Source: Chitinophaga niabensis (GTDB lineage: Bacteria; Bacteroidota; Bacteroidia; Chitinophagales; Chitinophagaceae). From it: a stretch of 64,000 nucleotides of DNA. Of the stretch, positions 44,846 to 54,199 are shown piece by piece. Numbering within the stretch: position 1 is the first letter of the stretch; the number at the start of each line of letters is the position of its first letter. A program made the translations under genes and the position numbers. The stretch covers positions 1 to 64,000 of the forward strand of contig JAFIGY010000008.1 of assembly GCA_017849435.1 (NCBI GenBank). The letters run 5' to 3'. Below the pieces are notes generated by a model. It ran no database searches, had not been told where the DNA came from, and worked only from the letters and a program-made list of their open reading frames with translations.

Positions 44846-45580
44846 ATGGATCTCGTTGACCAGCAGTACTGGGACGCTTCTTACAGCAACTTTCAATATT
44901 TTGTGGCAGAGGATGCCATCACCCGCTGGCTGGACCAATACGCAGCCTGGCTGCCCGCAGGCGGACAGATGTTCGAGTTCGGATGTTTTCCGGGCAGGTA
45001 TATGGCGCATATCGGTAAAAAAGGACTGACCGTGAACGGGATGGACCTGGTGCCGAATATGAATGAAGGGTTTTCCGGATGGCTGCAAAGCCTCGGCATC
45101 CGCACAGGCCGGCTGGAACGCGCGGATGTGCTGGCGTATGCTGCCGATACACCGGATCGCTATGACCTGGTTTGCTCTTTCGGCTTTATCGAACATTTCC
45201 GCAATTTCGAGGAGATCATTGCGCTGCACGACAGGATACTGAAACCCGGCGGCGCGCTTTTTATCACTACGCCCAATTTCCGCGGCGGCCTGCAGCATTT
45301 TCTGCGCAGTAACCTGGATAAAGAGAACCTGGCGCGACATTATATCCCTTCCATGCAGCCACAACAGTGGAAAACGCAGCTGGAGCAGTCAGGGTATGAT
45401 GTAAAATATGCCGGTTGCTTCGGTAAGTTCGATTTCTGGTTCGATCCCCAGTCCCGGAACGGCCTGCAAAAGTTAGGTGTGCGCATGGCCCTGAAGCTGA
45501 TCCCACTGATGAAAGCGCTTCCCGATGCATCTTTCCATTCGCCTTACTGCGGTATCATTGCGCAAAAAAAGCATACATGA
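44846..45580 (+). CDS. class I SAM-dependent methyltransferase
   Basis: 244 residues. The Rossmann motif I is degenerate but visible as MFEFGCFPGRYMAHIG (about 42-57); the acidic ribose contact is in GMDLVPN and motif IV/post I is LVCSFGFIEHF. LKPGGALFITTPN is the usual post-motif. It overlaps the next gene (GT6) by an ATGA at 45577-45580 and so is translationally coupled with it. This suggests that it methylates the same glycan or its lipid carrier intermediate. The acceptor is unknown. Confidence 0.85.
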   Translation: MDLVDQQYWDASYSNFQYFVAEDAITRWLDQYAAWLPAGGQMFEFGCFPGRYMAHIGKKGLTVNGMDLVPNMNEGFSGWLQSLGIRTGRLERADVLAYAADTPDRYDLVCSFGFIEHFRNFEEIIALHDRILKPGGALFITTPNFRGGLQHFLRSNLDKENLARHYIPSMQPQQWKTQLEQSGYDVKYAGCFGKFDFWFDPQSRNGLQKLGVRMALKLIPLMKALPDASFHSPYCGIIAQKKHT

Positions 45581-46359
45581 AGATCGCTATCCTGTATATC
45601 TGCACCGGGCATTACAAGGTGTTCTGGGATGAATTCTACACCAGCGCCGAGCAATACTTCATTCCCGGGGCCGCCAAAACCTACTTCGTTTTTACAGATG
45701 CGAAAGACCTTCCGTACCAGGATGCCCCCAATGTGCAGGTGCGGGAACAGGAGCTGCTCAGCTGGCCTTATGCCACATTGATGCGCTTTCACATCTTCTC
45801 CCGCATCCGGGAAGAACTGCAACATTTTGATTATATCTTCTTTTTTAATGCAAACGCAAAATTCCTGCGTACGATCACTGCGGAAGAATTCCTGCCCGGT
45901 CCGCAGGATGATGGCCTGACGGTGGTATTGAGCCCCGGTTTTCATGCCACCCCGCCGGAGGCATTACCGTATGAAAAACATCAGAAACGCTCTACTGCCT
46001 ATATGCCCAAAGCATACCGGAAGATCTATGTGCAGGGCGGTGTGAATGGCGGTATGGCGGCAGCTTATCTGCAGATGATCGAAACATTGCGGGAGCATGT
46101 GCAGCGGGATCTGGACAATGGGATCATTGCCATCTGGCACGATGAATCGCATCTGAACAGGTATATTGCAGATAAACATCCGCGTTTGCTGTCTCCTTCC
46201 TATATTTTCCCGGAAGATCGTCCTGATCTGCCTTTTGAGCCGATTATCCTTATCCGCGACAAGAAACCCTACGGCGGGAATTCCCTCATGCGCAAAGATA
46301 TGACGGACCGGAAACTGAGCCTTTGGCAAAGGATCCTGCGCCGGTTAAAAAATCTCTGA
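45577..46359 (+). CDS. GT6-family (ABO/alpha-1,3-Gal(NAc)-transferase family) glycosyltransferase
   Basis: 260 residues, no membrane anchor. Family motifs: TYFVFTDA, YIFFFNANAKF, AYMPKAYRKIYVQGGVNGG and the strongly conserved GIIAIWHDESHLNRY with the catalytic Glu E190. Animal GT6 enzymes have a DxD metal motif; here the site is N91-A-N93, the NxN form known from bacterial, metal-independent GT6 enzymes. Aligning YVQGGVNGG with human YYLGGFFGG puts Gly155 at human position 268, Gly in the A enzyme and Ala in the B enzyme. This hints at GalNAc transfer. GT6 enzymes usually add alpha-1,3-GalNAc or -Gal to Gal, often Fuc-alpha-1,2-Gal. A GT11 fucosyltransferase lies 1.5 kb away. Confidence 0.9.
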   Translation: MKIAILYICTGHYKVFWDEFYTSAEQYFIPGAAKTYFVFTDAKDLPYQDAPNVQVREQELLSWPYATLMRFHIFSRIREELQHFDYIFFFNANAKFLRTITAEEFLPGPQDDGLTVVLSPGFHATPPEALPYEKHQKRSTAYMPKAYRKIYVQGGVNGGMAAAYLQMIETLREHVQRDLDNGIIAIWHDESHLNRYIADKHPRLLSPSYIFPEDRPDLPFEPIILIRDKKPYGGNSLMRKDMTDRKLSLWQRILRRLKNL

Positions 46360-47853
46360 TCAACCGATCTTTTTCTTCACGAATGCTAATGCCTTGCGGT
46401 AAGTGTCCGTAACATCCTGTGACCAGCGGAACCGGATAATGGGACTAAGAAAGATGGTCAGGAAAGCCGTTGTGCGGAGCAATACGCTCAGGTAGGGGTT
46501 TTCCGGCCGGATCAGGTATTGTCCCACAAACCATCCCAGCACAGCCAGCGATAATACATACAACGTTTTGCGTGTGAAGGGTTGCATGTTGAATCTGTAG
46601 ACGAGGAAAACATAGCGCAGGCTGTTGTATACAAATGCAGATACCAATGCCGCGATGCCGGAGCCGGTGATACCGAATTGCTTGATGAAATAGATGTTCA
46701 TGGGAATGCTCAGCGCGAGCAGTATCAGCGTGGAGTAGAACTGGAAGCGCCACATATTGGAAGTGCCGATGATCTGTTCGTTCACGCCGGTACCAAGGTC
46801 CAGCACCTTGCTAAGGCCAAGGAAAAGCACGATATACCGCCCTTCTTCGTAGATAGGGGGGATATGCAATATCCGGAAGGCCGCGTCGAAGTTCAGCCAG
46901 ATCAGCACGAAGATCAGCGTAGCAAAAATGAGCATGGTAAGGGATGATCGTTTATACATGCTGCGTATCATGTCATGATCCTTATCCTTCCATGCCTTGG
47001 CCAGTACCGGAATGGCAATGGCAATCACACTGCGCTGCGGCACGGCAATCACATTGCTGATGTATGTGCTGAATTCCAGCACGCCCGTAGAAACGAGTCC
47101 CAGTGTACTCCCCACCACCAGCGCATCGATGTTCTGGGACAATATGCCGAATACACTGCCGCCAAAAATGAGCACGTTGAAAGAGATCATTTTGTCGGAC
47201 AGCTTGCGGGTAACATGGCTTATGCGGAAGGAAAAATGAAGGACGTCCTGCTGCTTCAGATAGATCAACAGCGCCAGAAAAATGATCGCATACAGGAAAG
47301 CAAACCCCCAGATGAATTCCACCGAATTGAATATCTGCAATACCATCAGCCCGATCAGCACTAGTGTAATGAACCGCATACCGATCTCTTTTAAAAAGAT
47401 CGGGAAGATAGATTTGTAATGATTGTTGCTGAAATGCTCGAAGAGCGTGAACAGCATCATAAAAAAAGTAAAGGGGTAGAGGAGATAGAAGTAATGGACG
47501 AAGAGCGGTGAATTCTTACCGTACTTTCTTACTACCAGATCGTGAAACACAAAGGTGCCCACTGTTACGAGCAGGAAACCGATACAGCTGACCAGGAGCA
47601 CGATGCCGAAGAGGTCCCGCTGTTTTGGTTGCAGATGATCGCGGTAGTACGGATAAAATTTGTTGAGCAGGGTTGCGGTGCCCATGGAGGCGATGGAATA
47701 GAATACCATGGATGTACTGAACATCAGACGGGTGAGCCCGTAAATGTCGGCCGGTACGAACCTGGTGAAGAGATATGTATTAAGCGCCCCGATCGCAAAT
47801 CCGATATAAGTAAGGATAGACGATCGGATGCTCTGGCTTCTGATAATTCCCAT
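46360..47853 (-). CDS. oligosaccharide flippase (Wzx-like, MOP superfamily)
   Basis: 497 residues from the ATG at 47853 (MGIIRSQSIRSS). About 14 transmembrane segments occur in two halves, with the start IRSSILTYIGFAIGALNTYLFTRFV typical of polysaccharide biosynthesis flippases. It should move undecaprenyl-linked oligosaccharide repeat units across the inner membrane for O-antigen, capsule or similar assembly. The gene faces the opposite way from its neighbours: its stop codon abuts the GT6 stop (46359/46360) and its start is 60 bp from that of GT11. Confidence 0.88.
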   Translation of the reverse strand: MGIIRSQSIRSSILTYIGFAIGALNTYLFTRFVPADIYGLTRLMFSTSMVFYSIASMGTATLLNKFYPYYRDHLQPKQRDLFGIVLLVSCIGFLLVTVGTFVFHDLVVRKYGKNSPLFVHYFYLLYPFTFFMMLFTLFEHFSNNHYKSIFPIFLKEIGMRFITLVLIGLMVLQIFNSVEFIWGFAFLYAIIFLALLIYLKQQDVLHFSFRISHVTRKLSDKMISFNVLIFGGSVFGILSQNIDALVVGSTLGLVSTGVLEFSTYISNVIAVPQRSVIAIAIPVLAKAWKDKDHDMIRSMYKRSSLTMLIFATLIFVLIWLNFDAAFRILHIPPIYEEGRYIVLFLGLSKVLDLGTGVNEQIIGTSNMWRFQFYSTLILLALSIPMNIYFIKQFGITGSGIAALVSAFVYNSLRYVFLVYRFNMQPFTRKTLYVLSLAVLGWFVGQYLIRPENPYLSVLLRTTAFLTIFLSPIIRFRWSQDVTDTYRKALAFVKKKIG

Positions 47854-47913
47854 ATATCCGCAAAGCAATAATGAACGCGAAAATAGATATTTTTGCAGCT
47901 TAATCGGCAGAAT

Positions 47914-48768
47914 TTGATCATTGTTCAGTTAAAAGGAGGACTGGGAAACCAGATGTTTCAATATGCGGCAGGCCGAAGTCTGTCCCTGCAATACCGGGTT
48001 CCGCTGATGCTGGATACTGCCAGCTTTGAGCCGCGGCAGGCAGGCATGTACGCACTGAATGCCTTGCAGATCAAAGCGGGGATTGCCGCGGAGGAAGATA
48101 TCGCGCCCTTTACGCCTTCTGTATGGCGGAAGATCCTGTATCGTATCGCGCCACTGAGCATGCGGCGGGTGTACCGGGAGCCGCATTTCCATTTTGATCC
48201 CCGTTTCTTCAGCGCCCGTCCGCCGCTTTATATGAAAGGCTACTGGCAAAGCTGGCGCTACTTCCAGTCCGTGGAGCAGGTAATCCGGGAAGATTTCGGT
48301 TTCAGGGAGGATTTCTCTGATGCCATACAGGCCAAAGCCGCCCGTTTGCAGGAACATCATAGCGTGGCCATGCATTTTCGCCGTGGCGACTATACGAATC
48401 CTGAAACCGCCGCCTATCACGGCGTTTGCGGCCCCGATTATTACAAGGATGCTGCAAAATGGATGCAGGAGCAGTTCCCGGACGCATATTTCTATATCTT
48501 CACTAATGATCCCGCCTGGGTGCGCGGCAATCTGCCGGAAGGTATCCGATACGAGATCCTGAGCGGCGACCTGAGCCATACACAATACGAAGATCTTTTC
48601 CTGATGAGCCGATGCCGGCACCAGATCATCGCCAACAGCAGCTACAGCTGGTGGGCCGCCTGGCTGAACCCTTACCCGGCCAAACAGGTAGTGGCACCCC
48701 GCAAATGGTTTGATGGCGCCCGCCTCAATACCGGAGACCTCATTCCTTCAAACTGGAAAAGCATCTGA
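47914..48768 (+). CDS. GT11-family alpha-1,2-fucosyltransferase
   Basis: 284 residues if started at the TTG at 47914 (IIVQLKGGLGNQMFQYAAG, the usual start point of this family). A TTG at 47893 gives seven more residues; no ATG is available near. The GDP-binding motif is H154-F-R-R-G-D-Y160 (HxRRGDY), with the family motifs YFYIFTNDPAWV and ISGDL-like ILSGDLSHTQYEDLFLMSRC, then IIANSSYSWWAAWLN. These are diagnostic of alpha-1,2/alpha-1,3 fucosyltransferases such as WbsJ and FutC. It transfers fucose from GDP-fucose, most often to galactose. Confidence 0.9.
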   Translation: MIIVQLKGGLGNQMFQYAAGRSLSLQYRVPLMLDTASFEPRQAGMYALNALQIKAGIAAEEDIAPFTPSVWRKILYRIAPLSMRRVYREPHFHFDPRFFSARPPLYMKGYWQSWRYFQSVEQVIREDFGFREDFSDAIQAKAARLQEHHSVAMHFRRGDYTNPETAAYHGVCGPDYYKDAAKWMQEQFPDAYFYIFTNDPAWVRGNLPEGIRYEILSGDLSHTQYEDLFLMSRCRHQIIANSSYSWWAAWLNPYPAKQVVAPRKWFDGARLNTGDLIPSNWKSI

Positions 48769-48772
48769 CCCT

Positions 48773-49606
48773 ATGATGGACACTCCGCTCATATCCGTAT
48801 TGCTGCCGGTGTACAACAGCGCCGGGTTCCTTACCGCCACTGTGGAGAGCATCCTGGCGCAGACGATGACGGACTTTGAGCTGTTGATACTCAACGACGG
48901 CTCAACGGACGGAAGCGAGGAAGTGATCCGTTCATTCCGGGATAGCCGTATCCGTTATTTCCATCATCCCAATCAGGGATTGGTATACACCCTCAACCGC
49001 GGAATCACTGAAGCCCGCGGCCGTTACATAGCCCGGATAGACGCGGATGACATCTGCCTGCCGGAACGCTTTGCCAGACAGGCCGCCTGGCTGGAAGAGC
49101 ATTCCGGAACTTCAGTGGTGAGCTGCTTTGTGACCTTCATCGATGAGAACGGAGCGCAAACAGGCAGTTGGGAGGAAGACCGGAAATACTATACGGCGCA
49201 GCAGATCCGGCAACAGCTGCCTTATATCAATTGCGTGGTACATCCCGGCGTGATGGCGCGCACGGCCGTATTCCGGGAATACCGCTATGATCCTGCACAA
49301 CAGCATATCGAAGATTATGACCTCTGGCTGCGGTTACTGTCAGACGGGCACGTGATAGAAAAGGTACCTGAAGTGCTGCTCCTGTACCGGGTTCACAACG
49401 CTTCCGTTACCGCCGCCAGCCTGAAAAAGAAGAACATCTTCCTCAAACAATATAACTGCAAGCGGAGATTCCTCGCCCGCAGGCTCTCAAAGGGATCTTT
49501 CCATATTTTTGACCTGCAGGTGGCGTTCGGCATGTGCAAAGATCTGCTGATCGGTACCGGAAAGTGGATTAAACAAAAAATGAATGTATCGACTGCTCAT
49601 TCTTAA
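48773..49606 (+). CDS. GT2-family glycosyltransferase
   Basis: 277 residues from the ATG at 48773; upstream in-frame codons overlap the fucosyltransferase and are excluded. GT-A fold: LISVLLPVYNSAGFLTATVE, ILNDGSTDG and the metal-binding D90-A-D92 in RIDADDICLPERF, then EDYDLWLRLL near the C-terminus. These are typical of inverting GT2 enzymes. It begins 4 bp after the GT11 stop. It overlaps the next GT4 gene by 23 bp and so belongs to the same transcript. Donor sugar unknown. Confidence 0.9.
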   Translation: MMDTPLISVLLPVYNSAGFLTATVESILAQTMTDFELLILNDGSTDGSEEVIRSFRDSRIRYFHHPNQGLVYTLNRGITEARGRYIARIDADDICLPERFARQAAWLEEHSGTSVVSCFVTFIDENGAQTGSWEEDRKYYTAQQIRQQLPYINCVVHPGVMARTAVFREYRYDPAQQHIEDYDLWLRLLSDGHVIEKVPEVLLLYRVHNASVTAASLKKKNIFLKQYNCKRRFLARRLSKGSFHIFDLQVAFGMCKDLLIGTGKWIKQKMNVSTAHS

Positions 49607-50750
49607 AAGACGCATAGAAGGTATTTTCATCTTCCCTTTTGCCTTCATAGGCAGACTGATCGCATATTTCAGACCATTGAGCGAGGAATATGACCTGTTC
49701 CTTATTTTCCCTTTTTATCATGTAGGTGGCGCCGAAAAAGTGCACAGCGATATCGCGCGGTTGTTCCCGGACAAGCGGGTGGCGATCTTCTTCACCAGGC
49801 GGTCCCGCAACGATGCGATGCTGCCCTTATTCCAGGCGCCCAATATCCGCTGGTACGATATCTCCGCATATACTGGCAGTAAGTGGCTGTATCCGCTGAA
49901 CCTTATCTATCGCGGGATCGTGGCGGGGTACATCAATCGCCAGAAGAAAGCGCCGGTGGTCTTTAACGGGCAATCCAATTTTGCTTACAAGCTGAGCCCG
50001 CATCTGCGCAGGGATATCCGCCAGGTAGAGCTGATCCACTCTTTCTGCAGTTTTTCGTATATCCGCATCCCGTTTCTGCCTTTTTACAGTACTTCGGTGA
50101 TGATCAGCAGGGATGCGATCTGTACGCATCTTGAGTTGTACCGGCGGTACAGGATACCTGCCGCATACGCAGAGTGCATACAGCTGATCATGAACGGCAT
50201 TCCGTTGCCGGAGGATACTTCGCCGCTGGCCGGGGATACGGCTTTGTTGTATGTTGGTCGCGGCACCTCGGAGAAGCGGCCGCAGCTTGTTGCCCGCATT
50301 GCCGCGAAGCTTGGGGTGAAAGCAGGATTTCTGGGGCTTGCGGAAGGGGATATGCCTGCATTCCTGCATCCATATTGTGTTTTCTATGGTCTGCAATCAG
50401 ATCCCGTGGTGATTGACCGTATTTACCGGCAGCACCGGGTTGTTACGATCACTTCCAGTCGCGAGGGATTCCCGATGGTGATCATGGAGGGAATGGCACG
50501 TGGATTGGCCGTGCTGGCCACGGATGTGGGAGATATTCCTTATCATGTGCAGAATGGCCTGAACGGCGGTCTGCTCGATCATACCCGTGCTGAGGAGGAG
50601 ATTGTACAGCAGGCGGCGGCGCAGCTTGGGGACTGGCTGGCGCATCCGGCGCAGCTGCAGGCCATCGCCCGGAACAATATTGCCTATGCACGGGAGCATT
50701 TCGGGATGGAAGCCTTTGCCCGGGCTTACCGGAAACTTTTGATATCATGA
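49584..50750 (+). CDS. GT4-family glycosyltransferase
   Basis: 388 residues. It starts inside the previous gene (23-bp overlap) and ends in an ATGA overlap with the following one. The N-terminal half includes PFYHVGGAEKVHSDIARLF, the usual GT4 acceptor-domain loop. The C-terminal half has LLYVGRGTSEKRPQLVARIAAKL and the E-x7-E motif in REGFPMVIMEGMARGLAVLATDVGDIPYHV. The order of overlapping genes indicates one surface-glycan operon. Donor and acceptor unknown. Confidence 0.88.
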   Translation: MYRLLILKRRIEGIFIFPFAFIGRLIAYFRPLSEEYDLFLIFPFYHVGGAEKVHSDIARLFPDKRVAIFFTRRSRNDAMLPLFQAPNIRWYDISAYTGSKWLYPLNLIYRGIVAGYINRQKKAPVVFNGQSNFAYKLSPHLRRDIRQVELIHSFCSFSYIRIPFLPFYSTSVMISRDAICTHLELYRRYRIPAAYAECIQLIMNGIPLPEDTSPLAGDTALLYVGRGTSEKRPQLVARIAAKLGVKAGFLGLAEGDMPAFLHPYCVFYGLQSDPVVIDRIYRQHRVVTITSSREGFPMVIMEGMARGLAVLATDVGDIPYHVQNGLNGGLLDHTRAEEEIVQQAAAQLGDWLAHPAQLQAIARNNIAYAREHFGMEAFARAYRKLLIS

Positions 50751-51664
50751 AACAGCTATCCGTTATCATTATCACTTACAACCGTCCGGATGATCTCCTG
50801 ATCCTGTTGCGCAATCTGGCGGAACAACAGGATGCTGCGGCATTGCTGGAGGAAGTGATCATTATCAATAATGCGTCCACTGCAGATTATAGTGCGGTGG
50901 AAGATTTCATTGGTAAACATTCGTATATACCTTTCCGTTATCAGTATTCCCCGGAGAACCTGGGAGTGGCGCGGGGGCGTAACCTCGGTATTTCGTTGGC
51001 GAAAGCGCCGTTGCTGGTAACGCTGGATGATGATGCGTGGTTCCGGGACGGGGATGCGTTGCGGAAGATTGCGGAGGCGTTCGGGCGAGGGTTTTTGCCG
51101 GAGAACAATGCCGGTATCCTTTGTTTCAAGGTGCTGTATGCCAGCAACGGACAGATGCAGGTCAATGCCTTCCCACACAAGCAGTTTGAAAAATACAGGA
51201 ACAAACCGCAATTCCTCGCGCCCTATTACATCGGTTGCGGGCATGCTATCCTCAAAACGGTGTATGAACAGGCTGGCCGTTATCCGGAGGATTTCTTTTA
51301 CGGGATGGAGGAATATGATCTTGCCTATCGCGCGCTGAACAAGGGCTTCAGCATTGCTTACAATGCGGGGATCGTGGTATTGCATAATGAATCCCCGTTG
51401 GGCAGAACGCCACAGATGATCAAAATGAAAATGTTGTGGATCAACAAAAGTAAGGTGGCCTATCGTTACCTGCCCTGGTGGTGCTTTATCAGCACGGCCG
51501 TGATGTGGTCGTTCGAATTTCTGAAAAAGACGTCGTGGAACTGGAAGGAGTGGTGGAAAGGATGGGGAAGTATCATGAAGATTCCCGGCGGGGAAAAGCG
51601 GCAGCCTTTGAATACAGCGGCACGCAGGTATTTACGGAAAACGGAAGCGCGATTGTGGTATTGA
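50747..51664 (+). CDS. GT2-family glycosyltransferase
   Basis: 305 residues. Motifs: LSVIIITYNRPDDLLILLRNL, IIINNAST, NLGVARGRNLGISLAKAPLLVTLDDDAWF (the DDD metal site) and YIGCGHAILK, then DFFYGMEEYDLAYRALNKGF, the acid-residue motif near the catalytic base. It fits the rhamnosyltransferase-like branch of GT2. Its start overlaps the previous GT4 gene by ATGA. A shared terminator follows at 51679, so this is the last gene of the glycan operon. Confidence 0.88.
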   Translation: MKQLSVIIITYNRPDDLLILLRNLAEQQDAAALLEEVIIINNASTADYSAVEDFIGKHSYIPFRYQYSPENLGVARGRNLGISLAKAPLLVTLDDDAWFRDGDALRKIAEAFGRGFLPENNAGILCFKVLYASNGQMQVNAFPHKQFEKYRNKPQFLAPYYIGCGHAILKTVYEQAGRYPEDFFYGMEEYDLAYRALNKGFSIAYNAGIVVLHNESPLGRTPQMIKMKMLWINKSKVAYRYLPWWCFISTAVMWSFEFLKKTSWNWKEWWKGWGSIMKIPGGEKRQPLNTAARRYLRKTEARLWY

Positions 51665-51678
51665 AAAGACATAGCATA

Positions 51679-51713
51679 AAAAAGGGGATGACTTTGTAGC
51701 GCATCCCCTTTTC
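51679..51713. terminator. bidirectional terminator between the glycan operon and the YfhO gene
   Basis: AAAAAGGGGATG (51679-51690) pairs with CATCCCCTTTTT (51702-51713). T-rich stretches follow on both strands. Confidence 0.85.
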
Positions 51714-51721
51714 TTTTTGCT

Positions 51722-54199
51722 TTATGACGGTAGTTGTGTTTTGAATCCTTTTCGCACCTCAAATAAGATGGCGCCTGCCAGCAGCAATACCATGATGAGG
51801 GAAGACCAGCGGGTGATCATGCTGCCGAGATAATAAGAGCGCGGCTCAAACTTCATTTCGATCTTGTGGTCGCCGGCGGGAATCTTCACCGCACGCAACA
51901 AATAGTTCGCCCGCACGATCTCGTCCTTCTTCCCGTCGATGTACACATTCCAGCCGGCAGGATAATAGATGTCGGAGAATATGGCCAGTCCGGCTTTACT
52001 ATTGGAGCTTTGGTATTCCAGCTGGTTGAGACCGTATTTTGTGAGCCTGATATGACTGGAAGAATCTTTGCCGGGTGTAAGGTCATTCAGTACGGATTTG
52101 AAACGCTGGTCCACCACGGCCGCGTGACTGGTAGGCAGGCTATCCAGCGTTTTCATCTCTTCATCCGCATTTTTGGCCCATACCAGGCTGTCAATAAACC
52201 ATGCGTTCCCCAACGCATCCGGATTGCGTTGAAATCCCGGTTGACCCTGTTGATCCGCGAAGATCACATATTTGGTATTGAGCATGTTCACTACCCGCGG
52301 ATTTCCTTTGGACAGCTGATGATCGATCAAATCCTGGTACAGCGCCAGTTTTACTGGACTGTAGCCGCCCACAGCCTTATGGTGGTAAGAGGTGAGTGCA
52401 TCCTGGAAATTAACGACATTGAATACACGATAATAAGGATCGGGATCTTTTTTGATCTCCAGGTCTACGGCTGTAGGTGCAAAAATATTAGAGTAATCAT
52501 GCGGGGTAACATAATTTTTCTTGCTTAGATAGCGCCAGTCGATCTGCATTTCGTCCAATGCCACCAACGCTACCAGGGCGCCGAGCATCACACCTGCCTT
52601 GATCTTTTGCTGAATGAAGGCCCAGATGAGACCTGCGCTGATCAGGATGATAGCGAGGGAACGGAAAGCATCTACCCGCAGCAGGGAAGCACGGTCGTCG
52701 ATGAGGGCTTTCATCAGCTGGTCCGCCGCTTGCTGGTTACCGCCGGCGAATTGCAGGTAGTACCCTTTGGCCGGGTCTTTCGCGGAAGTGAAATCTATCA
52801 GTCCAAAGGAAGCGAGGATGAACAGCAGGCAAAGGCCGCCGGTAATATAAAAAGCTTTCTTCACCTGTTTGAGCACCAGCTGCTTATCCAGCTGTCCGCT
52901 TACCACATCGTTCAGGGCCCAGCATGCGAGGAAAGGTACCAGCAGTTGCGGCAGTACCAACGCCTGGGAAGGTGCGCGGAACTTGTTATACATGGGCAGA
53001 TGATCGAACAGGAAATAGTTGAGCACGGAGAAATTGTCTCCCCAGGCCAACAGCACACCGAGTATGCAGGTGGCCAGTATCCACCATTTGTGATAACTTT
53101 TTACAATAAAGAGCGACAGTACAAAGAGGAAAATGATCACAGCGCCCCAGTAAATGGCCCCGTCCACCATGGGTTGAGGGCCCCAGTACCGCAGCACGCC
53201 GCCGCTGATGAACTGCTCTGCCTGCCCGGCCGGCATGCCCAGCTGTGTGAGCGTAGTGTAGGTTTTGCTCGATGTGGAAAGCGGGCCCTGGGTAGGACCG
53301 CCGTAGAAGTTAGGGACCAGCACGGTGAACGGTTCATATATACCGGTGCTCCATTGGAAAGCATAGCTTTTGTCCAACCCACCCGCTGTTTTGTCCGATT
53401 CCTGACCCGCTACGGGCGTCAGCTCGGAATGCCCGCCGCGCATGGTGTATTTACCGAACTCGGAAGTGGTCCACAGGCTGACCGTGGAAGGTAATATCGA
53501 CAGCAGGCCGAAGATCAGCAACACGCCGGTGGATTTCACAAATTGCGGTATCTGTTGCTGCCGGATGGCATGTATGAGGTGAACGATGCCGATGATGATG
53601 GACATCAGCAGTACATAGTACACCACCTGGTAGTGGCCGGAAGTAATCATCAGGCAAAGCGAGATACAGGTAATGATCCCCCCGATCCAGTAGCGGCCGC
53701 GGTAAACGAGGAGTATCCCCGCCAGCATCGGCGCCATATAGGCCATGGTGAACATTTTAGTATCGTGCCCGGCGAAAATGATCATGGCGTTGTAAGAGGC
53801 AAACCCGAAAGCGATAGCGCCCATCACATTGATCCACTGGCGGAACCGCATCACGGAGAGCAGCAGGTAGAAGCCCAGCATGGCGAGGAAAAAGAAGTTG
53901 GCCGGTTTAGGCAGACCCAGCGTCAGGATTGTATGGATATGATAGGTGTAGTTCTCTATCACCATATAGATCTGGTAAGTGGGCATACCACCGAACATGG
54001 CGTTGGTCCACAGCGGGCCGATGCCGGTTTTCTGGTGCCATTCCCTTGCTTCCTGGGACATTGCCTGCCATTGCACCGTATCATGCTGCCTGAGCTCCAG
54101 GCCTTCCAGCACCGGGCTGCAGAAAAGGAAAGACAGCCCCACGAAAATGAGGATAGCATATATATGCGGAAGAACAACCTTGAGCCAGTTTTGCTTCAT
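51722..54199 (-). CDS. YfhO-family membrane protein
   Basis: 825 residues with about 13 transmembrane helices. YfhO features: an N-terminal membrane segment and a periplasmic loop with HDTVQWQAMSQEAREW and FGGMPTYQI, several membrane stretches, and a C-terminal periplasmic domain (about 590-790, YYRVFNV, HHKAVGGYSPVKLALYQ, NMLNTKYVI, YPAGWNVYIDGK). Related proteins in Firmicutes modify teichoic or lipoteichoic acids with sugars using lipid-linked donors (GT-C fold). A role in adding sugars to envelope polymers next to this glycan locus is reasonable but not shown. It converges with the glycan operon. Confidence 0.8.
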   Translation of the reverse strand: MKQNWLKVVLPHIYAILIFVGLSFLFCSPVLEGLELRQHDTVQWQAMSQEAREWHQKTGIGPLWTNAMFGGMPTYQIYMVIENYTYHIHTILTLGLPKPANFFFLAMLGFYLLLSVMRFRQWINVMGAIAFGFASYNAMIIFAGHDTKMFTMAYMAPMLAGILLVYRGRYWIGGIITCISLCLMITSGHYQVVYYVLLMSIIIGIVHLIHAIRQQQIPQFVKSTGVLLIFGLLSILPSTVSLWTTSEFGKYTMRGGHSELTPVAGQESDKTAGGLDKSYAFQWSTGIYEPFTVLVPNFYGGPTQGPLSTSSKTYTTLTQLGMPAGQAEQFISGGVLRYWGPQPMVDGAIYWGAVIIFLFVLSLFIVKSYHKWWILATCILGVLLAWGDNFSVLNYFLFDHLPMYNKFRAPSQALVLPQLLVPFLACWALNDVVSGQLDKQLVLKQVKKAFYITGGLCLLFILASFGLIDFTSAKDPAKGYYLQFAGGNQQAADQLMKALIDDRASLLRVDAFRSLAIILISAGLIWAFIQQKIKAGVMLGALVALVALDEMQIDWRYLSKKNYVTPHDYSNIFAPTAVDLEIKKDPDPYYRVFNVVNFQDALTSYHHKAVGGYSPVKLALYQDLIDHQLSKGNPRVVNMLNTKYVIFADQQGQPGFQRNPDALGNAWFIDSLVWAKNADEEMKTLDSLPTSHAAVVDQRFKSVLNDLTPGKDSSSHIRLTKYGLNQLEYQSSNSKAGLAIFSDIYYPAGWNVYIDGKKDEIVRANYLLRAVKIPAGDHKIEMKFEPRSYYLGSMITRWSSLIMVLLLAGAILFEVRKGFKTQLPS

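Follow-up and report, generated by a model that had tools for sequence, protein, structure and literature searches.

The closest described relatives of the locus studied here are bacterial systems in which a glycosyltransferase of family GT6 is accompanied by a fucosyltransferase. In Escherichia coli O86, the GT6 enzyme WbnI and an H-type fucosyltransferase act in formation of the O86 antigen, according to PMC4202792. In Helicobacter mustelae, PMC2846917 reports an A epitope on lipopolysaccharide (LPS), and gene numbers place HMU12050, a predicted A/B transferase, beside HMU12060, the single predicted fucosyltransferase of that organism. A third point of comparison is BoGT6a of Bacteroides ovatus, a GT6 enzyme of solved structure for which A-antigen-like products have been reported. 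Here, a 64,000-nt stretch of Chitinophaga niabensis DNA (the window), located on a 66-kb contig of a 5.0-Mb, 99.96% complete genome, was found to carry a GT6 gene and a GT11 fucosyltransferase gene within a glycan locus at 44846–51664. The locus is probably a bacterial A/B/H-type glycan locus of Chitinophaga, predicted to direct the synthesis of an H-like structure followed by its conversion to an A- or B-like one. Compared by description rather than by sequence, E. coli O86 possesses the same pair of activities and H. mustelae the same juxtaposition of an A/B-type transferase gene with a fucosyltransferase gene. The O86 product, however, is a polymeric O-antigen, whereas no polymerase was recognized among the eight genes examined in the window locus, and H. 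mustelae, unlike the Chitinophaga of the window, is host-associated.

The GT6 enzyme exceeded the family thresholds of both Pfam (PF03414, 93.5 bits, cut-off 25) and NCBIfam (NF041524, 309.3 bits, cut-off 250), and is the only GT6-family match in the genome. BoGT6a is its closest solved relative, with 48% identity, and the window GT6 model fits the BoGT6a structure (PDB 4ayj, 4cjc). The N91-A-N93 motif, the catalytic Glu (E190) and the diphosphate-binding Lys (K229) align with those of BoGT6a, where their roles have been described (PMC3961637), and were invariant in 15 sequences. The window enzyme resembles BoGT6a in its NXN motif, both of these further residues and its fold. At the positions equivalent to 266 and 268 of human GTA it carries Gln and Gly, respectively. 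The GT11 enzyme matched PF01531 with 96.1 bits (cut-off 23.9), matched no model in the NCBIfam scan and showed a GDP-fucosyltransferase fold upon fold comparison. Within its motif H154, R156 and D159 were invariant across 36 sequences, with R157 present in at least 90%, and it too is the only match of its family in the genome. The characterised GT11 members named in PMC4202792 mostly form the alpha-1,2 linkage. For both enzymes, the models and fold comparison provide confirmation at the level of family rather than of donor or acceptor specificity. The GDP-fucose synthesis genes that the sequence-only reading of this stretch had proposed to look for were located, as gmd and fcl are present elsewhere in the genome together with galE for UDP-Gal. 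An A/B/H-type locus is expected to combine a GT6 with a fucosyltransferase in a genome able to supply GDP-fucose, and this combination was observed.

The proximity of GT6 to GT11 exceeds chance. Within 394 Chitinophagaceae genomes, GT6 was present in 13 and GT11 in 107, with the two associated in the same genome (Fisher's test, p 1.9e-5) and a GT11 located 2.0 kb or less from GT6, measured hit to hit, in 11 of the 13 (96 to 1985 nt). To see whether general clustering of glycosyltransferase genes is the cause, two other families were compared, and the linkage was not reproduced by GT25 (93 genomes, 104 places; GT11 anywhere in 28; nearest 4976 nt) or GT32 (46 genomes, 53 places; GT11 anywhere in 10; nearest 7425 nt), neither of which had any GT11 within 4 kb, these being two of many possible control families that may prefer other kinds of locus. 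Both exceptions come from genomes showing no GT11. Genome G166 encodes a DXD-type GT6 (DAD; L056:9777-10625) that is approximately 32% identical to the window GT6, and G028 contains a GT6 fragment of 109 positions with an in-frame TGA. A motif census identified the NXN type in 11 other survey genomes, the sole DXD-type being L056, with the fragment L061 lacking the motif; the 12 GT6 sequences read by eye displayed NAN. An apparent lack of GT11 in G440 (L077) was dismissed, as an antisense open reading frame (ORF) had displaced the gene in ORF calling, which tblastn recovers over 288 positions with 66% identity.

Linkage was also observed well beyond the family. A scan of 84,980 genomes using the GT6 alignment confirmed 244 relatives, the best 80 of which were analysed. 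Given these were picked by likeness to an alignment whose members mostly have an adjacent GT11, and include several of the family loci above, they do not represent a random sample. Those most similar to the window locus came from Chitinophaga, in accordance with the assignment of the window to this genus: an uncultured metagenome-assembled genome (MAG) of the genus shared 70% identity, SYP-B3965 (a Chitinophaga sp.) 59% and C. alhagiae T22 57%. A GT11 was present within 4 kb in 67 of the 80 loci (68 when the entire fetched stretch is considered), and in 43 of 54 after collapsing at 70% identity. In four of the 80, GT6 and GT11 formed a single open frame in which both Pfam domains scored above cut-off. 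The domain order is GT6-GT11 in L112 (Hoeflea MAG), L146 (Planctomycetota MAG; a 544-aa protein) and L164 (Kuenenia MAG) and GT11-GT6 in L165 (Gastranaerophilales MAG), which indicates at least two fusion events. No report of a GT6-GT11 fusion or of this locus was found among the listings of the open literature searched, and an earlier mention of GT6-GT11 adjacency elsewhere is possible. As a separate observation, a 962-aa ORF from a Dysgonamonadaceae MAG (L140:9974-12859) contains GT6, GT2 and GT4 domains beside an adjacent GT11 gene, the four glycosyltransferase activities of the window locus.

Because GT6 and GT11 are usually close, and sometimes fused, in other bacteria, the window pair probably makes an A/B-like tip. 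In the proposed pathway, the GT2 and GT4 enzymes would assemble a short, galactose-containing, lipid-linked oligosaccharide. With GDP-fucose as donor, GT11 would then attach L-fucose to that galactose, most likely in alpha-1,2 linkage, forming an H-like structure, and GT6 would extend the same galactose with GalNAc or Gal in alpha-1,3 linkage, creating an A- or B-like tip. The product may be O-methylated by the methyltransferase, and the flippase would carry it across the inner membrane. The linkages, the donor sugar, the order of addition on one galactose, the carrier and the role of methylation are each predicted. Action of GT11 and then GT6 on one galactose is supported by the kinship to BoGT6a, the GT11 fold, the GDP-fucose genes, the cross-phylum linkage, the fusions and the H. 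mustelae precedent. The earlier proposal that this bacterium may display an H/A/B-like antigen is upheld in its family assignments and in the sequential use of one galactose, to which linkage, fusions and fold lend good support. Display of an antibody-reactive antigen stays a prediction, and the methyltransferase, whose gene overlaps that of GT6, may alter or mask the epitope.

Several observations weigh against this pathway. The GT11 family can form other linkages, HhFT2 being an alpha-1,3 enzyme (PMC4202792), and the window GT6 differs from BoGT6a at four substrate contacts (Asn69 to Ala, His122 to Ser, Thr134 to Pro and His239 to Asn). With the flippase antisense between GT6 and GT11, the methyltransferase-GT6 and GT11-GT2-GT4-GT2 genes constitute separate plus-strand groups, and in the window GT6 does not share a transcription unit with GT11. 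The 13 best loci without a GT11 within 4 kb include several MAGs and contig ends; in seven of these genomes a GT11 is located further off or elsewhere, and in six none is seen, so the association of GT6 with GT11 is not universal. Strict co-inheritance was likewise rejected, as GT6 and GT11 distances from 45 pairs gave only a moderate Mantel correlation (r 0.39, with 0 of 2000 permutations as high), so that joint inheritance of the partners is frequent without being strict. The two enzymes might instead act on different residues of one glycan, yielding an unfucosylated alpha-1,3-Gal or -GalNAc branch with fucose elsewhere and no A/B/H determinant. This arrangement is improbable given that BoGT6a uses 2'-fucosyllactose as a substrate (PMC3961637), that GT6 and GT11 are tightly linked and at times fused, and that the family exceptions without GT11 are the DXD-type enzyme of G166 and the fragment of G028.

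The setting of the pair was examined across the genus. All 60 genomes of the genus that were searched, the window genome among them, contained the flippase, and regions were fetched from 20 of the other 59, comprising the 18 best flippase matches together with G006 and G445. The genus locus surrounds this core flippase, often between dnaE (13 of the 20 regions) and YfhO (17 of 20); L074, a 5-kb contig, is too short to show either. GT11 was present in 11 regions and GT6 in five (L074-L078), every GT6 being accompanied by a GT11. Flippase identity to the window was 61–74% in the five GT6 loci versus 46–50% in the six GT11-only loci, whereas GT11 (60–66%), GT4 (63–69%) and YfhO (66–75%) were similar between the groups wherever they were observed. 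GT6 therefore appears to have been exchanged along with a flippase type that matches it, both coming and going in the regions examined as the GT11-GT2-GT4-GT2 genes remain, and the flippase may recognize the glycan in its capped form. The methyltransferase is inside the swapped part in four of the five same-genus GT6 loci; in the fifth, L078, it is absent and its position is taken by a different ORF with weak resemblance to a methyltransferase. More widely, 10 of 84 loci had a relative of the methyltransferase no more than 300 nt from GT6. In the GT6-less L084, the place of GT6 is occupied by another GT2 and an FkbM methyltransferase. Flippases matching the same profile were also present near YfhO, surrounded by different glycosyltransferases, in Chitinophaga, Olivibacter domesticus, one Mucilaginibacter MAG and a Bacteroidetes MAG. 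The YfhO of L191 is slightly below the Pfam cut-off and 38% identical to that of the window. YfhO may act in a periplasmic step of the glycan pathway.

One more feature was noted in GT6-less Chitinophaga loci. Between flippase and GT11, L084:11107-13779 and L080:7081-9279 encode a protein that resembles adhesins and carries CshA_NR2, Ig-like and CHU_C type IX secretion domains, and ORFs similar in size and place are present in L083 and L085.

Two destinations for the glycan were considered. It could be attached to many envelope proteins as the outer, species-specific portion of the general protein O-glycan of Bacteroidota, with assembly and flipping both carried out by this locus, a proposal that is plausible though held at somewhat less than even confidence. 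The core flippase with variable glycosyltransferases in the genus is in keeping with it, as are the nearby methyltransferases and the result that Pfam recognized no Wzy polymerase among the eight proteins of 44846–54199, the rest of the genome not having been searched. A review describes a species-variable, methylated outer glycan arising from a flippase locus (LFG) whose layout is not conserved phylum-wide (PMC12871550). The LFG and the window locus are alike in combining a flippase with variable glycosyltransferases and modifying enzymes. The LFG layout of metG followed by wzx, however, was not found in two Chitinophaga genomes: in SYP-B3965 and C. alhagiae, metG is on a different contig from the flippase locus, and blast using the window genes gave no match in the 20-kb stretches around metG. 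A profile of 11 flippases matched two other places in the one Bacteroides genome searched, Bacteroides sp. GM023, but missed its metG-linked flippase, which is of another Pfam family (PF13440-type). Comparison of the LFG terminal glycosyltransferase pair gave a weak GT4-GT4 match (35.4 bits). The window locus is closed by YfhO instead. Membership of the LFG was rejected on the failed metG layout, and the LFG was retained as a functional rival only. As its layout is not conserved, and its ligase and oligosaccharyltransferase are unknown according to PMC12871550, protein O-glycosylation may still be the process served by the window locus.

Alternatively, the glycan could form part of an LPS O-antigen or an exopolysaccharide, in the manner of E. 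coli O86 or H. mustelae (PMC4202792 and PMC2846917). Other GT6-GT11 pairs of the family, in L052, L054, L057 and L060, agree with such a role, as they sit amid additional GT2/GT4-like genes and not in the YfhO locus. Against it, Pfam recognized neither a polymerase nor an initiating sugar-phosphate transferase among the eight proteins, the rest of the genome not having been searched, and a flippase present throughout the genus would be unusual for a serotype locus. This second destination is a serious possibility, again falling a little short of an even chance.

The kind of system encoded by GT6 and GT11 is already known; what is added is the setting, a core Chitinophaga locus in which the cap is optional, together with the fusion enzymes. 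Chitinophaga is a mainly soil- and plant-associated genus, and vertebrate-host mimicry is therefore not implied. Most discussion of A/B-like sugars on bacteria concerns species that live in the gut or with a host, where such sugars are viewed either as mimicry or as what triggers natural anti-A and anti-B antibodies. An H-then-A/B pair in a soil and plant genus suggests that bacterial ABO-type chemistry need not concern vertebrate hosts. Given the tie between GT6 and GT11 across several phyla, functions can be predicted, and put to the test, for many bacterial GT6 genes so far uncharacterised, and the natural fusions are single-polypeptide candidates for two-step A/B synthesis. A broader and distinctly speculative extension, on balance doubtful, is that GT6 and GT11 form an old, free-standing module of ABO type, moving between phyla and undergoing fusion there without need of a vertebrate host. 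It would serve in Chitinophaga as an exchangeable cap for a core flippase-YfhO glycan that envelope proteins in general might carry, with free-living bacteria varying their A/B-type by cassette exchange (the methyltransferase-GT6 genes and matching flippase in, another GT2 out).

The gene set originally read from the sequence (GT6, GT11, flippase, methyltransferase, two GT2 and one GT4) was recovered in full as intact ORFs at the positions proposed, each above its Pfam cut-off, and is listed below with the remaining features.

Table 1. Features of the Chitinophaga glycan locus and of related flippase-YfhO neighbourhoods
Feature	Position	Strand	Basis
SAM-dependent methyltransferase	44846..45580	+	Methyltransf_23 above Pfam cut-off, intact ORF
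BoGT6a-like GT6 glycosyltransferase of the metal-independent NXN type; predicted alpha-1,3-GalNAc/-Gal transferase	45577..46359	+	Pfam Glyco_transf_6, NCBIfam
GT6 Asn-Ala-Asn codons (residues 91-93), replacing DXD	45847..45855	+	alignment
Wzx-type flippase	46360..47868	-	Polysacc_synt 34.6 bits (cut-off 28.2)
GT11 fucosyltransferase, predicted alpha-1,2 on galactose	47914..48768	+	Glyco_transf_11
GT11 HFRRGDY codons (residues 154-160), family HxRRxD motif	48373..48393	+	alignment
GT2 glycosyltransferase	48773..49606	+	Pfam; ATG 48773, longest ORF from TTG 48710
GT4 glycosyltransferase	49584..50750	+	Pfam
GT2 glycosyltransferase	50747..51664	+	Pfam
YfhO-family membrane protein, locus end	51722..54199	-	Pfam
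Flippase-YfhO neighbourhoods	window 46360-54199; L181:9740-16117; L191:9818-19277; L192:3423-7459		

The locus is preceded by genes for an NlpC/P60 protein and dnaE. Neighbouring genes overlap by 4 nt (methyltransferase and GT6; GT4 and the second GT2) or 23 nt (the first GT2 and GT4), and an in-frame TTG is present upstream of the GT11 start, at 47893. No tandem repeats were found, and Rfam at gathering thresholds returned a single tRNA match. Elsewhere in the genus, the dnaE of G229 (L079:3542-7176) is read as two abutting ORFs (514 and 698 aa), perhaps reflecting a frameshift or an assembly error.

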